From contig NZ_JACBAZ010000001.1 of assembly GCF_013391475.1 (NCBI RefSeq), positions 826,377 through 890,376 of the forward strand: a stretch of 64,000 nt of DNA, read 5' to 3'. Made by a program: the position numbers and the translations under genes. The notes beneath the pieces were generated by a model. It saw only the letters and a program-made list of their open reading frames with translations. It was not told where the DNA came from and ran no database searches. This DNA comes from Oceaniferula marina (lineage in GTDB: Bacteria > Verrucomicrobiota > Verrucomicrobiia > Verrucomicrobiales > Akkermansiaceae). This document shows positions 47,161 through 53,581 of the stretch, piece by piece; positions within the stretch are counted from its first letter, which is position 1; each line of letters starts with the position of its first letter.

Positions 47161-49665
47161 CTATTCGCTGGCTGGGTTGCTGTGCTGCATCGATTTCAGC
47201 TTCTGAATATCCTCCTCGGTGAGTTTCGGGCGGTCAATGCTGAGGGTTAATTTCTCCAATGTGCCGGTGAACCGAAATGGCGTTTGATAGTCCTGATCAG
47301 ACACGGGAGATCCGGTATCAGCACCAACGTCGAAACTTTCACACCATTGCATCAACATCGGAATCGTCTTTTCCATCTTCTTTGTAGCCACAACCTTACC
47401 GTCAACTTTGAGCGTCCCTGTCCCCCCTCGACCAAGGCCACTGGGGCTTCCGTATTTCAGGGTATCAGCGCCCAAGCCATCATACTGAAAATCAAACTCA
47501 AGGGTATGCTTCCCTGCGCTCAATGCTTCTTTCCCTTCCCACCTAACACGCTGCATACCAAACAGGTTGTACACGTAAACGGGCTTTCCTTTCAGCAAAT
47601 AGAAACCATAACCGGCAAAACGTCCGCCATGCGTCACCATCATACCTTCAGCTCCCCCGTCGGGAATCACCACCTCAGCCTTGATGTTATACGATGAGGC
47701 CAGAACGTTTGGAGCATTTCCATTGGGCGTTCCGGTGACTTCTCCAGCATAAGTGAATGACGACCGCCCCGCTGTGAGGTTGGGACGAGGCAGAAGTGAA
47801 CGGGTAAAGGTGGTGGTATCCATCGGCAATACCTGGTTTTTATCCGCTTCTTCCCAGAAAAGTTTTTCCAGAGCCTTCACCTTGTCCGGATATTGAGCGG
47901 CCACATCATTTGACTGCGTCCAATCCTTACTCAGGTCATACAATTCCCACGGCCAGCTGGCGGGGTCATGATTTCCCTTGCCACTGTTATCCCACGGAGT
48001 GCGCATTACTTTGGTGCTAAGAATCCAGCCGTCATGATAAATCGCACGATCACCAATCATCTCAAAATACTGGGTCTTATGCTTTGAGGGAGCCTCCGCA
48101 TTCTTTGTATCGAAGGTGTAAAGCATACTTACACCATCCATGGGTTCCTGTTTGATGCCGTCGATTTCATCAGGCAGCGGAACGCCAACCGCTTCGAGAA
48201 TCGTTGGCGCAATATCCACAACATGGTGGAACTGATGACGGACTCCCCCCTTCTCCTTGATCACCTTGGGCCAGGAAATCACCGTTCCTTGTTTGGTTCC
48301 GCCAAAGTGAGAACAAACCATCTTGGTCCATGAAAATGGAGTGCCAAAGGCCCAGGTCCACCCCACTGACATGTGTGGATAAGTCTGTTCCGAACCCCAG
48401 ACATCGTAATACTTCATCTGGGCCTCTACAGGCAGATGCAATCCCTGAACCGAAGCCACCTCATTGGGAGTCCCCGTCGGTCCACCTTCGGAGCTGGTAC
48501 CATTGTCACCCGTGATATAAATAATCAAGGTGTTGTCCAATTTACCCAGATCCTCGACAGCCTGAATGACACGTCCAATTTCATGGTCCGTATACGCCAC
48601 GTAGGCAGCAAACACATCCGCCTGCTTGATAAATAATTTTTTCTCCAGATCCGACAGTTGATCCCACCGCTTGATTAAATCATTCGGCCATGGCGTCAAT
48701 TTGGCATCCGCTGGGATAACGCCGAGTTTTTTCTGATTGGCAAAAATCGTTTCGCGTAACTGATGCCATCCCTCATCGAAAAGGTGCATCTTGCTTATTT
48801 TGTCAATCCACTCCGGTGTCGGGTGATGAGGAGCGTGGGTCGCACCCGGAGCATAATACACGAAAAACGGTTGATCCGGATTGAGAGCATCCACAGTCTT
48901 CATATAACCAATCGCATCATCTGCCATCGCCGTTACAAGATTCCATCCGGGTTTATTTTCATATGGGTAAATATAGGTGGTGTTTCGAACAAGGTTGCCT
49001 GGCTGCCATTGACTGGTATCCCCACCCATGAATCCATAAAAATAATCAAAGCCCATACCCAGTGGCCACTGATCAAACGGCCCGATCTTACTGGTAGGCA
49101 AATCCGGTGTGTTATGGTTTTTACCGAACCACGAGGTGACATAACCGTGGCCTTTGAGAATGCGCGCCACCGTCGCCTTATCCTTCGTCATCATCCCATT
49201 GTATCCGGGATACCCGGTAGACAACTCCGGAATCGTTCCCATCCCCATACGGTGGTGGTTTCGCCCTGAAATAAGCGATGCCCGCGTCGGCGAACAAACG
49301 GCCGTGGAATGGAAATGGGTGTATCGCAACCCCTGCTTCGCAATTCTGTCCATAGCCGGTGTCGGAATCACCCCTCCAAACGTGCTGGACACCCCGTAAC
49401 CGGCATCATCCGTAATGATTAAAAGGATGTTGGGAGCCCCCTCGGGAGCAACCATCCGCGGTGGCCAATAAGGCGTTGAGTCAAGGACATTGCGTTCAAT
49501 TTCCCCGTCAAATTTCTTATCAGGTGGTGGTGGAAGTTGCTTTCCGTCAATGGTCGTGGTCGAACTTGGGGATCCGGGAGGAGCCACGGCCTCCGCCGAA
49601 ACAGAAGCAAGGCCTAGCCCCATGGTCGTAGCTCCAGAGATGATATACTTGATTGTTTTGTTCAT
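47161..49665 (-). CDS. Secreted arylsulfatase
   Basis: The 834-residue enzyme belongs to the large arylsulfatase branch of the S1 family. Start at the ATG at 49665 gives a signal peptide (YIISGATTMGLGLASVSA). The mature protein has PNILLIITDDAGYGVSS (metal Asp pair), the formylglycine motif CSPTR at Cys124 and TGDNGTSSEGGP. About 250 C-terminal residues beyond the sulfatase core (from about 590) form a beta-rich accessory domain (TYAGEVTGTPNGNAPNVL, FQYDGLGADTLKYG). It hydrolyses a sulfate ester in the periplasm or outside the cell. An AraC regulator lies upstream on the same strand, and a divergent barrel gene beyond it. Confidence 0.9.
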   Translation of the reverse strand: MNKTIKYIISGATTMGLGLASVSAEAVAPPGSPSSTTTIDGKQLPPPPDKKFDGEIERNVLDSTPYWPPRMVAPEGAPNILLIITDDAGYGVSSTFGGVIPTPAMDRIAKQGLRYTHFHSTAVCSPTRASLISGRNHHRMGMGTIPELSTGYPGYNGMMTKDKATVARILKGHGYVTSWFGKNHNTPDLPTSKIGPFDQWPLGMGFDYFYGFMGGDTSQWQPGNLVRNTTYIYPYENKPGWNLVTAMADDAIGYMKTVDALNPDQPFFVYYAPGATHAPHHPTPEWIDKISKMHLFDEGWHQLRETIFANQKKLGVIPADAKLTPWPNDLIKRWDQLSDLEKKLFIKQADVFAAYVAYTDHEIGRVIQAVEDLGKLDNTLIIYITGDNGTSSEGGPTGTPNEVASVQGLHLPVEAQMKYYDVWGSEQTYPHMSVGWTWAFGTPFSWTKMVCSHFGGTKQGTVISWPKVIKEKGGVRHQFHHVVDIAPTILEAVGVPLPDEIDGIKQEPMDGVSMLYTFDTKNAEAPSKHKTQYFEMIGDRAIYHDGWILSTKVMRTPWDNSGKGNHDPASWPWELYDLSKDWTQSNDVAAQYPDKVKALEKLFWEEADKNQVLPMDTTTFTRSLLPRPNLTAGRSSFTYAGEVTGTPNGNAPNVLASSYNIKAEVVIPDGGAEGMMVTHGGRFAGYGFYLLKGKPVYVYNLFGMQRVRWEGKEALSAGKHTLEFDFQYDGLGADTLKYGSPSGLGRGGTGTLKVDGKVVATKKMEKTIPMLMQWCESFDVGADTGSPVSDQDYQTPFRFTGTLEKLTLSIDRPKLTEEDIQKLKSMQHSNPASE

Positions 49666-49767
49666 GGTCAAAGAACTGATTTTTTCAGTCCCTATCAGAA
49701 TAAGGAATGGAACTGACCCCATCAACGTGAAACCCTATCCAAAAACCGCAGTCTCCCCCCTCCATCA

Positions 49768-49826
49768 TTCACACGTTCACACATTCACACATTCACACGT
49801 TCACAGTACCGAAGCCGAAGCCGAAG
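49768..49826. repeat. Two adjacent short tandem repeats at the end of the AraC gene
   Basis: TTCACAC(G/A) with period 8 is repeated nearly five times from 49768 to 49806, overlapping the AraC stop codon. CCGAAG with period 6 is repeated three times at 49809-49826 inside the AraC coding end, producing the Ser-Ala tail. Slippage here could change the C-terminus. Confidence 0.75.
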
Positions 49827-50853
49827 CGGACAATGCCGCGCCCTCATCACCTTGCAGGGGTCCATCAACATCCAGATCCTCACACCGACGAGCCAAGGTT
49901 TGGCCCGCACTTTCTCCGAACATCGTTTGATAGTATGTGGAAAAATGCCCCATATGTGAAAAGCCAGCCTCCAAGGCAAGCTGCTTCACTTTCCCTGGCT
50001 CCGGATCAGATTGGAGCAAGGCGTGGTGAACACTCTGCAATCGCTGCAAACGGAGAAAAGCTACCGGCCCGGTTCCAACCATGTCTTTGAACAAGTTCTC
50101 GACCCCGCGCTCCGAAAGGTGGGCCGACTTGCAGAGGTCTTCCACAAAAAGAGGCTCCCTAATATGGTCCAGAATATAGTCCCGGGTAGCACAAAACTTT
50201 TTATAACGCGTAAGGACCCGACCAAGGCTCTTCACTCCGCCTCGGTGCAAGCCTTCACGCAATGCTGCTAGATAAGTAGGTAATAAAAAGCGGCCCAATT
50301 CACGGCAAACAATCTCCTTAACCGACTGCTTGTCGTAGCTCTCAACCGCCCGTCTCATCGCCCCCAACAGCGACCTCAAATGCTCCTGATTGATCCTTCC
50401 AACCTCCATACCAAAACCACCCCCAGACAAAAGCTGATCCATTTCGGGAACATACACCTTGAGAGCCTCCCGAAACACATCCTCCCGTACCGTCAGCAGC
50501 GCATTAATCGCGCCTGCCGGATTTGTGGCATCCAGCTTTGCCCCCGGAGGAAAAAAGCCCATATAACCCGATACAAAATCGGTTTCAAAATTAAACGAAT
50601 GCCCTTCTTCCTCACATTCCACCACAAAGCTCATCGTATACGAATCAGAAGGCATCTCACCACGATAAAGCATTGCCGACCCGGCCTTCACCCAGTCCAA
50701 GCACATCACGCCGAAATCCACTCTCAGCAATTCGCTGAACGTCGGTTCATGACTGAGCTGGCAGGGTTCGATACAGGCACCTTTGACCACAGAGGCAAAA
50801 TGCTGAGGATCCTGAAAGACCATTTCAGTCACGAAACATACGTCCGTTTGCAT
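49801..50853 (-). CDS. AraC-family transcriptional regulator
   Basis: The 350-residue protein (ATG at 50853) has an N-terminal sensor domain (about 1-200) and a C-terminal AraC-type double helix-turn-helix (about 225-325: FVEDLCKSAHLSERGVENLF, then QLALEAGFSHMGHFSTYYQ). A low-complexity SASASASVL tail is encoded by a hexanucleotide repeat. It lies upstream of the arylsulfatase on the same strand, so it is a likely activator of the sulfatase and perhaps of the divergent outer-membrane gene at 51191. Confidence 0.9.
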   Translation of the reverse strand: MQTDVCFVTEMVFQDPQHFASVVKGACIEPCQLSHEPTFSELLRVDFGVMCLDWVKAGSAMLYRGEMPSDSYTMSFVVECEEEGHSFNFETDFVSGYMGFFPPGAKLDATNPAGAINALLTVREDVFREALKVYVPEMDQLLSGGGFGMEVGRINQEHLRSLLGAMRRAVESYDKQSVKEIVCRELGRFLLPTYLAALREGLHRGGVKSLGRVLTRYKKFCATRDYILDHIREPLFVEDLCKSAHLSERGVENLFKDMVGTGPVAFLRLQRLQSVHHALLQSDPEPGKVKQLALEAGFSHMGHFSTYYQTMFGESAGQTLARRCEDLDVDGPLQGDEGAALSASASASVL

Positions 50854-50944
50854 ACCTACTGATATCGTCCCCCCCAATAAAGATCAAGGATGTTTACTGC
50901 GGATATTGGATACGGTTCAGCTTTGTATCAAAAGACAAATATAA

Positions 50945-51121
50945 CAGAATGATACTCAGCTAAACGGTCCACTCATGGGTGACAGAGCTAAAGGCGACAC
51001 TCCCGACTCCAGCGACGGAGTGATCGAATTCTGGAGCTCTCATCTTGACGGGGCCCAATCCGAAAGAATCGCCCCTCGAAACCACATTGGCCATCTACAC
51101 CCCTAGGCTATCAAGGATAGT
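50945..51121 (+). pseudogene. Alpha/beta hydrolase pseudogene fragment
   Basis: Between the AraC gene and the outer-membrane gene a plus-strand frame reads MGDRAKGDTPDSSDGVIEF then WSSHLDGAQSERIAP, ending HLHP-stop (TAG at 51104-51106), with AIKD continuing in frame. This closely resembles the C-terminus of a lipase-like alpha/beta hydrolase family, in which HPEAI is expected; a GAG to TAG change explains the stop. The 5' part of the gene is missing, because an in-frame TAA stands at 50942-50944. Identification is from memory of the family pattern. The rest of the 337-base gap (50854-51190) shows no other feature. Confidence 0.65.
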
Positions 51122-51190
51122 CCGCCGCCGCTTACACCGACATCTCATCAATCACCCGTAATACAAGCAAACCAACCAGTAAATAAATCG

Positions 51191-51958
51191 ATGAAAAAAA
51201 CAAGCCTCGCACTCATCAGCCTCGCACCATTGACTGCTCTCGCAGGGGAAGCCATTCAAACAAACAGCAGCACGTATTCCATCCAATCCGAACATTCAGA
51301 ATGGTACTACCGTGTTGCTCTCTACGGATGGGGCCAATCTCTGGACGGCGACATCGGAGTCATGGGACAAACCGCAGCCGTGGATGTTGATTTTTCAGAC
51401 TTGGTCGAAGACCTCGAAATCGGCCTAATGGGAGCTGTAGAAATAGGCAAAGGTCGGTGGAGTGTGCTTCTGGACCTCAATTACGCCGACCTCAGCGATG
51501 AAATCAGCACGCCAAACTCGAAAATCGATTTCGAACAAGAGCAACTTGTTGGCAATCTGGTGCTCAACTACCAAGCCATCAACAGCGATGTATCCAAGCT
51601 CACTCTCTTCGGAGGCATTCGAGGCAACTGGCTCGATGTCAATATGTCCTATACCGGAGGCCCACTCAAAGACAGAACGCTGGATGAAGACAAATCTTGG
51701 GCAGACCCGATCATCGGACTCCGCTACCGGCAGGACTTAGGGTCTTCCATCTATTTACGAGCCCTTGGTGACGTCGGAGGTTTTGGAGTTTCCTCTGATT
51801 TCACATGGCAAGCCATGGCAGGACTTGGCTGGCAATTCAACCCTTGTGGAGGGCTCTTTCTCGGCTACCGGGCGATCGGAACCGACTATGAAGACGGAGG
51901 GTTCACATACGACCTCTCGGCTCACGGCCCAATGATTGGGCTAGAATACAAATTCTGA
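51191..51958 (+). CDS. Outer-membrane beta-barrel protein
   Basis: The 255-residue protein has a signal peptide (MKKTSLALISLAPLTALAGE) and alternating polar/hydrophobic strands (WYYRVALYGWGQSLDGDIG, GRWSVLLDLNYADL, NLVLNYQAI, WADPIIGLRYRQDL). It ends in the Phe-terminated strand PMIGLEYKF, a typical barrel C-terminus for outer-membrane insertion. It lacks recognisable transport motifs. It is divergent from the AraC regulator, with the hydrolase fossil in the gap, and convergent with menD (27 bases). Confidence 0.78.
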   Translation: MKKTSLALISLAPLTALAGEAIQTNSSTYSIQSEHSEWYYRVALYGWGQSLDGDIGVMGQTAAVDVDFSDLVEDLEIGLMGAVEIGKGRWSVLLDLNYADLSDEISTPNSKIDFEQEQLVGNLVLNYQAINSDVSKLTLFGGIRGNWLDVNMSYTGGPLKDRTLDEDKSWADPIIGLRYRQDLGSSIYLRALGDVGGFGVSSDFTWQAMAGLGWQFNPCGGLFLGYRAIGTDYEDGGFTYDLSAHGPMIGLEYKF

Positions 51959-51985: not shown

Positions 51986-53581
51986 CTAACCCATTGCCTG
52001 CCAGAACCCTTTCGTCTGGCGGGCATCCGGGATAACTTCCACTACGGTCGTCACATCACAGGGTTCCAGATCAAAATCTTCGATCCCGCGAACGCAGATA
52101 TAGCGCATGCCCCACATCGAAGCCCAGTGTTCAAATCTTGTGTCATGCGCGTTGGTCACCATTTCCTCGACCTCTTCATCCAAAGCCTGAACCTTCGGCA
52201 GGCGACCAAAAATGCGCCCTCCTCCGTTATTGATCACCACTAACATCCGCCCCTTGGTTTCAACCTGTGCTAACAAAGCTGGCGCAGATAGATCATACAG
52301 AGTGGTTAGATCACCAAACACACCCCAGGCATCCTCCTCATCCGCTGTAGCACCAAGCCAGGTCGAAATCTGACCATCGATGCCATTGGCTCCCCGGTTA
52401 GCCCGCACCATTTCGTAAGGAATCTCGCGCTGGGAAAAATCGTTCCATTCCCGGATCGGCAGGCTATTCCCCAGGTATAAACTACGCCCCATCGTTGCCA
52501 TCACTGACAGCGTTCTCACCATCCCGGGTTCACTCTCAGGAAAGGCCTCCAAATGCTCACCCAGCACACCTCTCCCACGCGCTGCGGTTTTGAGTAGATC
52601 CGTCGTATCGCCAACTGAGGAAACTTCTCCGAGCGCTCTCAATGAACGCGGAATATCACCACGGATCACGACACTCTCGCGGGCCAAGCCCGAATGGTCG
52701 GTTCGGGTCAAGGAGACCACTTCCACCTCGGGCATGCTTTCAAGATCCCGCCAAAAGCGCCCGACAGGAACCTCACCAATTCTTAAAACCGAAGCAGGTG
52801 GATGATTCCGCAACAAACGATCTCCATCCACCAATGAGAGCCTGCCCAAGGCTTCACGCAACCCACTGGTACTATCCGCCAGCACCGGCACGGCCAAATC
52901 CTTCAAAAAATGCCAAACCTCTTCCCGGTCCCAAGGTTCCAGACCTCCCAGCATCACCACCATTCCACCCCGCCAGGCATTCCGCATCATCTCCAACACC
53001 GGTAACATGTTTAAATTACCGATTGGCTCCCGAATCTCACCGACTCTGACTTTGGAAGTCCGGACGCCCCCCTCTTCACCCCGCTCATCTTCTTCAAGGC
53101 AAAGGTTCACATGCCATGGGCCGATACCAGACCATCCGTCAAACATCAGCAACTCATCAGCCCACTCCAAATCCTGGCAGCCTTCGACATAGTCTTCAAA
53201 AATACCGACTTGTTCAATCGCTTGAGGAGCGCCCGACCCCCGAAACCTCCGAGGGCGATCAGCAGAAAGCACAACCAAGGGCCGCCCCTGATAATGGGCC
53301 TCAATCACGGCTGGAAGTAACTCTGCAACTGCGGTCCCCGAGGTGGTAACCACGGCACAGGCGGCACCACTCTGCATCGTCCGGCCAAGGGCAAAAAATC
53401 CTGCCGAACGCTCTTCGAAATGGTTGAACACCCTGATATCTCCGGCATCACCGCTACGTTGAAACTCCGCAAGCGCGGTCACCAGATCGAGATTCCTCGC
53501 TCCGGCACAAACAACAAACTCCTGTATTCCGGCAGCCACACATGCTGCTACGGTATCATGAACCCAACCTTGACTCGACAT
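51986..53581 (-). CDS. menD: 2-succinyl-5-enolpyruvyl-6-hydroxy-3-cyclohexene-1-carboxylate synthase
   Basis: MenD is the ThDP-dependent enzyme that joins isochorismate and 2-oxoglutarate in menaquinone synthesis. The 531-residue protein has the catalytic-Glu region HFEERSAGFFALG, CAVVTTSGTAVAELLPAVIE, LVVLSADRPRRFRG and a C-terminal ThDP/metal region (GDLTTLYDLSA...VVINNGGGRIF). The usual N-terminal APGSRS is CAGARN here. Other men genes are not in the window. It is a single gene, 82 bases downstream of acpS on the same strand. Confidence 0.9.
   Translation of the reverse strand: MSSQGWVHDTVAACVAAGIQEFVVCAGARNLDLVTALAEFQRSGDAGDIRVFNHFEERSAGFFALGRTMQSGAACAVVTTSGTAVAELLPAVIEAHYQGRPLVVLSADRPRRFRGSGAPQAIEQVGIFEDYVEGCQDLEWADELLMFDGWSGIGPWHVNLCLEEDERGEEGGVRTSKVRVGEIREPIGNLNMLPVLEMMRNAWRGGMVVMLGGLEPWDREEVWHFLKDLAVPVLADSTSGLREALGRLSLVDGDRLLRNHPPASVLRIGEVPVGRFWRDLESMPEVEVVSLTRTDHSGLARESVVIRGDIPRSLRALGEVSSVGDTTDLLKTAARGRGVLGEHLEAFPESEPGMVRTLSVMATMGRSLYLGNSLPIREWNDFSQREIPYEMVRANRGANGIDGQISTWLGATADEEDAWGVFGDLTTLYDLSAPALLAQVETKGRMLVVINNGGGRIFGRLPKVQALDEEVEEMVTNAHDTRFEHWASMWGMRYICVRGIEDFDLEPCDVTTVVEVIPDARQTKGFWQAMG

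Follow-up and report, generated by a model that had tools for sequence, protein, structure and literature searches.

A probable hydrolase-gene remnant in the spacer between an AraC-family regulator and an outer-membrane barrel gene of Oceaniferula marina

The spacer in front of an outer-membrane beta-barrel-like gene in Oceaniferula marina most probably contains what is left of a dead B-type alpha/beta-hydrolase gene, namely its 3' end (positions 50972-51161, plus strand), a reading to which, from sequence comparison, we give a probability of about 0.88. Positions are those of the window, the whole stretch of 64,000 nucleotides analysed here (contig NZ_JACBAZ010000001.1, 826,377 to 890,376), and "B-type" is a label for hydrolases of the GDTPxSSDGVVxYWSSH kind. 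Only about the last 60 codons of an ancestral ~550 remain, about 490 having gone, and the remnant carries inactivating lesions of three sorts (truncation, nonsense and frameshift). The tail is unable to make an enzyme. It lies among the following features:

47161-49725, minus strand: long arylsulfatase-like gene, left of the AraC gene; under NCBIfam cut-offs
49801-50877, minus strand: AraC-family regulator, divergent from the barrel gene (HTH_18, E 4.2e-17); alternative ATG at 50853
50898-50915, strand not assigned: 18-base motif TGCG....T.GG.TA..., common to the upstream regions of six AraC homologues, the window's counted
50972-51161, plus strand: probable 3' remnant of a B-type alpha/beta-hydrolase gene, from searches and frameshift-aware profile alignment
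50975-51106, plus strand: open frame from ATG to TAG within the remnant, 43 codons plus stop, in the frame of the barrel gene
51104-51106, plus strand: TAG nonsense codon, in a profile column where relatives mostly have E, Q or D, and where L, K and M also occur
51119-51122, plus strand: one-base frameshift, after which homology resumes in the next frame up to 51146
51159-51161, plus strand: TAA closing the shifted frame, near the expected end of the ancestral gene
51191-51958, plus strand: outer-membrane beta-barrel-like protein of 255 residues (OMP_b-brl, E 5.6e-4, under the Pfam cut-off; signal peptide by eye)
51986-53581, minus strand: menD, the conserved flank, from the genus comparison

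Homology, extent and lesions of the remnant

The initial annotation had proposed a hydrolase-family C-terminus at this place, and translated searching bears this out. In its own genome, a 52-residue query from the remnant matched five long open hydrolase frames (E 8.9e-14, 1.9e-13, 2.4e-13, 9.9e-8 and 1.3e-4, with identities of 57, 59, 59, 50 and 42%), besides itself and one further match at chance level (E 1.67). At E <= 0.01 it found matches in 32 of 58 genomes, the own genome counted, the top one outside it being in genome G040 (73% identity across 44 residues). Intact homologues of the remnant thus exist in both the own genome and relatives, and the similarity to members of the alpha/beta hydrolases (Abhydrolase_6 PF12697 / PGAP1-like) is significant, the best E value being that of the own-genome frame at 8.9e-14. 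When the same 58 genomes were searched at the DNA level, the spacer matched itself and two other places (in G031 and G048), both of which coincide with hydrolase matches. A Pfam scan of a 53-residue piece of the remnant by itself matched no family. The profile was built from 17 hydrolase frames of the loci examined, of which the C-terminal 170 residues were aligned, and the window DNA was aligned to its columns with frameshifts allowed; the tail scored 158, and none of the other 157 one-kb tiles exceeded 34.6 (158 tiles with the remnant's own, from both strands of the window, the last 600 bases of each strand left out). Chance similarity was ruled out on the own-genome E values, the shuffle tests and the tile scores.

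Read by translation, 50945-51121 on the plus strand gives QNDTQLNGPLMGDRAKGDTPDSSDGVIEFWSSHLDGAQSERIAPRNHIGHLHP, then a stop, then AIKDS. The HP-stop-AIK reading of the initial annotation is in the correct frame, with the TAG at 51104-51106 as its stop, and the loss of the 5' part and the nonsense codon were both rightly called, while the one-base frameshift and the rest of the C-terminus had been missed. The interval proposed then, 50945-51121, holds in part: hydrolase-like sequence is present from 50972, but the first 27 bases are not hydrolase-like, and at the other end the homology reaches 51146 and the frame 51161. These limits come from the frameshift-aware alignment, which places homology at 50972-51146, with the frame closing at 51159-51161. 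The remnant reads as 44 codons, the TAG, four further codons and a one-base shift, after which VRRRLHRHL stands against VRRILHLHL of the family. The extension past the TAG scored 17.6, above the maxima of 9.9 in single-base shuffles (0/2000) and 11.8 at random positions in the window (0/2000). At the 5' side, the CAC at 50970 resembles the His-Ser of the family, yet extension past 50972 did no better than shuffles (103 of 300 equalled or beat the observed value), and a remnant reaching further 5' was rejected.

What the remnant keeps and what it lacks follow from this position. Its SSDG and NH motifs are preserved, in columns that may be those of the catalytic Asp and His, whereas the GHSMGG elbow and everything 5' of it are gone; homology begins past the nucleophile elbow (GxSxG), which is absent from the remnant. 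It also differs at positions where the aligned relatives are invariant or nearly so (GDRG to GDRA, IVP to IAP and RIL to RRL). Like intact B-type hydrolases (e.g., G031:C1 and G364:C72; Abhydrolase_6/PGAP1-like), it shows the C-terminal block GDRGKGDTPxSSDGVVxYWSSHLDGAxSExIVPxxH...HP and the RIL-HxHL end, but unlike these proteins, which have roughly 530-575 residues and a GHSMGG-like elbow, it retains about the last 60 codons only. One intact B-type relative scored above the cut-offs for Abhydrolase_6 and PGAP1 (PF12697 at 5.6e-11), and one own-genome copy of the A-type that was scanned fell under the Pfam cut-offs; NCBIfam named neither type above its cut-offs. With a B-type query, the own genome gave the remnant and five frames, none above 39% identity, and no intact B-type copy was found there, the five long open paralogues being of other subtypes. 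In a tree the remnant joins G040 with a support of 0.42 only, and its placement among the hydrolases is not relied on.

The AraC-linked motif and the spacer

The initial annotation had also suggested that the promoter region of the present unit arose on, or overlaps, old coding sequence. This stands for the stretch leading up to the barrel ATG (spacer or leader), which does overlap the remnant, but not for the 18-base motif at 50898-50915, a presumed AraC operator, which lies outside it. A search of 288 genomes at E <= 1e-25 gave AraC homologues in four besides this one, and a fifth, in G337, came from a locus chosen for its hydrolase. Besides the window, the loci with the motif upstream of AraC are L056, L201, L138, L139 and L140, and all six are sulfatase loci. 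The best 18-mer shared by the six upstream regions reached 26.1 bits; in shuffled sets, a control of 12 only, the mean was 20.1 and the maximum 21.4.

The motif sits wholly upstream of the remnant, across a gap of 56 bases. In G026, the closest AraC/barrel locus (barrel 58%), it is present without the remnant: a search of that spacer for a hydrolase tail scored 18.4, which is background. In the pairwise comparison of the window with G026, the best match falls at the place of the motif (17/20). Shuffles did as well in 44 of 2000 cases for the whole spacer and, when only the part ahead of the remnant was compared, in 2 of 1000; over the remnant itself the comparison is no better than chance (741/1000 shuffles), and the 29 bases past it match weakly (54/1000 shuffles). 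The distance from motif to barrel ATG is 293 bases in the window and 157 in G026. Because the motif lies upstream of the remnant and occurs without it in G026, we regard the control motif as separate from the remnant, and the remnant as spacer or leader. Scanning 50840-51220 with a consensus gave no sigma-70-like site, though the consensus may not suit this organism. A promoter within the remnant was set aside on this result, and it is why the word "leader" is used here with reserve. A known RNA element was likewise rejected, the single match being at chance level (E 0.26). The barrel gene starts 29 bases past the last stop of the remnant; across 51107-51190 its frame is open 5' of its ATG back to the TAG of the remnant, so that the two share one frame with a single stop between.

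Gene neighbourhoods and the origin of the remnant

On its other side the barrel gene meets a flank that is conserved in the genus. panC adjoins menD on the 3' side in 12 of 13 genus-mates (the exception being G009, within the 1.5 kb compared), while in this genome it lies at G000:C1:763199-763999, about 114 kb from menD, and the barrel gene occupies its place. This separation points to a junction made near the site of the remnant. The barrel was found at E <= 1e-3 in none of the 13 genus-mates, and this, with the split menD/panC neighbourhood, sets this genome apart, as the one with the block, from the genus-mates searched. Queried against the genome contigs, the barrel gave two distant matches only.

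An intact copy between the AraC and barrel genes, which the initial annotation had proposed to look for in relatives, was present at no locus examined, and the nearest arrangement is that of G364 and G173, with the order hydrolase, channel, barrel. In front of other barrel matches, 56 usable stretches of up to 700 bases each contained no tail like that of the remnant (58 = 44 + 14 stretches, from which L025 and L073 drop out, the C-terminal half having been matched, inside the barrel gene). The best tail scores there were 28.8 on the same strand (the 44 stretches) and 29.9 (the 14), vs 158 for the window. Hydrolase sequence does occur near the barrel. Among 30 loci selected solely on barrel similarity, 10 contain it (L099, L101, L104, L108, L110, L161, L162, L165, L167 and L169), and each of these has one or more pieces on the strand of a barrel; in L167 it is a tail only. 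This is a raw count, from a selection of the barrel matches and not all of them, and it is confined to these 30 because several of the first 13 barrel loci had been chosen for a nearby hydrolase.

In these bacteria, genes of this hydrolase family are often near barrel and sulfatase genes, and sometimes near ion-channel genes. The order in G364:C72 (L165 8972-15458) is sulfatase, hydrolase, channel, barrel. G173:C21 (L099 1-2307) has hydrolase, channel, barrel on a contig that begins within the hydrolase, the sulfatase thus not being seen, and its channel is of the pentameric ligand-gated type (Neur_chan_LBD, E 7e-13). In G051:C278 (L068 909-6943) the order is sulfatase, channel, barrel, hydrolase. 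A long sulfatase, a hydrolase, a pentameric ligand-gated ion-channel-like protein and a barrel thus form a recurrent set on one strand, in varying order.

Broken copies of the hydrolase recur in relatives, and the remnant in the window counts as one of them. In G369:C231 (L167 8929-12204) a hydrolase tail of 50 codons stands directly 3' of a barrel frame that holds an internal stop. Partial repeats of the upstream reading frames follow this tail, giving the look of a scarred and rearranged array. G349:C4 (L202 8600-8797) has a tail of ~73 codons and, over the 8.6 kb before it, nothing else that matches the hydrolase, G357:C140 (L204 7794-8387) has a 5'-truncated copy of ~206 codons, and in G364:C72 (L165 12679-13092) a middle piece of a hydrolase lies next to an open copy. 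The copies in G037:C111, G337 and G339:C45 are apparently longer, with broken frames; the first of these had been a candidate C-terminal fragment and proved to be such a longer copy rather than a tail.

As to origin, about 490 of the ~550 codons would have been lost when the sulfatase-AraC-barrel block was built or reshaped by a rearrangement, which left the tail on the strand of the barrel, 29 bases before its start. Besides the truncation there is point decay, in the TAG and the one-base frameshift. Should transcription of the barrel come from the AraC side, the tail is now the spacer or 5' leader between the motif and the barrel. We infer both the transcription of the tail and the order of events. 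No intermediate was found that would link the present arrangement to an intact one, and the absence of an intact hydrolase between AraC and barrel, like that of the barrel from the 13 genus-mates, counts against this explanation. It has two versions, which we consider about equally likely.

The version that we place a little short of even odds is that recombination, while the block was assembled, set beside the AraC gene either a tail truncated beforehand or a barrel gene preceded by such a tail. The stray tails in G369 (right after the barrel stop) and G349 speak for it, as does the presence of the block at menD in this genome alone of its genus, and the AraC/barrel pair of G026 without a remnant could be the older state. 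However, a search for repeats gave no convincing scar. It showed three repeat pairs, of 17 bases at 76% (50958/50986, spanning the 5' edge of the remnant), 10 bases (51203/51218, inside the barrel start) and 9 bases (50883/51110), all short or imperfect, and as scars of a mobile element all three were judged weak by eye and rejected.

In the other version, possible and likewise under even odds, the AraC gene and its promoter once faced a hydrolase gene, perhaps followed by a channel gene, and then the barrel at this very place, and a deletion from just past the promoter to about codon 490 joined the barrel to the promoter on the AraC side. Strand and order would be those of G364 and G173, and the shared motif is uninterrupted, upstream of the remnant. 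In G337 an AraC homologue is divergent from a run on one strand of barrel (26% identical), sulfatase and, across an intervening 2.4 kb, a frameshifted hydrolase, which also favours deletion in place. Yet a channel gene separates hydrolase and barrel in G364 and G173, where the window has just 29 bases, and the G026 pair, which has no remnant, agrees with a carried-in fragment no less well than with deletion in place.

It is improbable that the 3' end of the hydrolase gene is a preferred breakpoint, such that 5'-truncated tails of ~50-75 codons at apparent junctions (window, G369 and G349) come from a shared recombination process that may keep cutting, the tail in the window then being kept as a leader of the barrel. 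The starts of these tails in B-type numbering, about 479, 490 and 507, fall within about 30 codons of one another. The search that yielded them used a C-terminal query, and short frames were picked by eye among the matches listed, which favours tails; for this reason we do not build on the clustering. Still less probable is a functional short gene or leader peptide, in which the 43-codon frame from ATG to TAG is translated and regulates, or is coupled to, the barrel. It shares the barrel's frame with only the TAG between, and it keeps the SSDG and NH motifs; however, it is absent from the 56 usable stretches upstream of barrels, it has changed at the (near-)invariant positions named above, and the homology continues past the TAG and through the frameshift as in a dead gene. 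That an intact gene was wrongly assembled or sequenced is the least probable reading of all. Although the genome is a draft of 88 contigs, it would take more than one independent error to produce a nonsense codon, a frameshift and the loss of ~490 codons within a contig of 1.2 Mb, and no 5' part lies upstream of the remnant or, by B-type query, elsewhere in the genome.

Relation to known gene remnants and meaning

For Shewanella and Sodalis, the Pseudofinder paper counts 238 and 305 gene remnants in intergenic regions (PMC9336565). Like the truncated or degraded intergenic pseudogenes that Pseudofinder catalogues, the remnant matches intact genes in translated search, has lost most of its length, bears a nonsense codon and a frameshift, and lies between called genes. 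From these pseudogenes it does not differ in kind; it happens to fill the spacer that precedes the barrel gene, next to a conserved motif linked to AraC. As in the Buchnera spacers of PMC3164680, one spacer holds both decaying gene sequence and a conserved element, but those are spacers of reduced symbiont genomes, whereas the genome here is of 5 Mb with several open paralogues. Among the titles and abstract openings searched, nothing concerned this locus.

The remnant is pseudogene debris of an ordinary sort, in a sulfatase neighbourhood that is rearranging, and not a new system. In itself it matters little, as one more gene remnant. It does correct a tempting over-reading, in that the control motif is separate from the remnant and occurs without it, and it shows how the remains of a lost neighbour can make up the 5' spacer of an outer-membrane gene, with the presumed operator left in place. 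Beyond this, it points to a recurrent gene set of sulfatase, hydrolase, ion channel and barrel that is worth describing.
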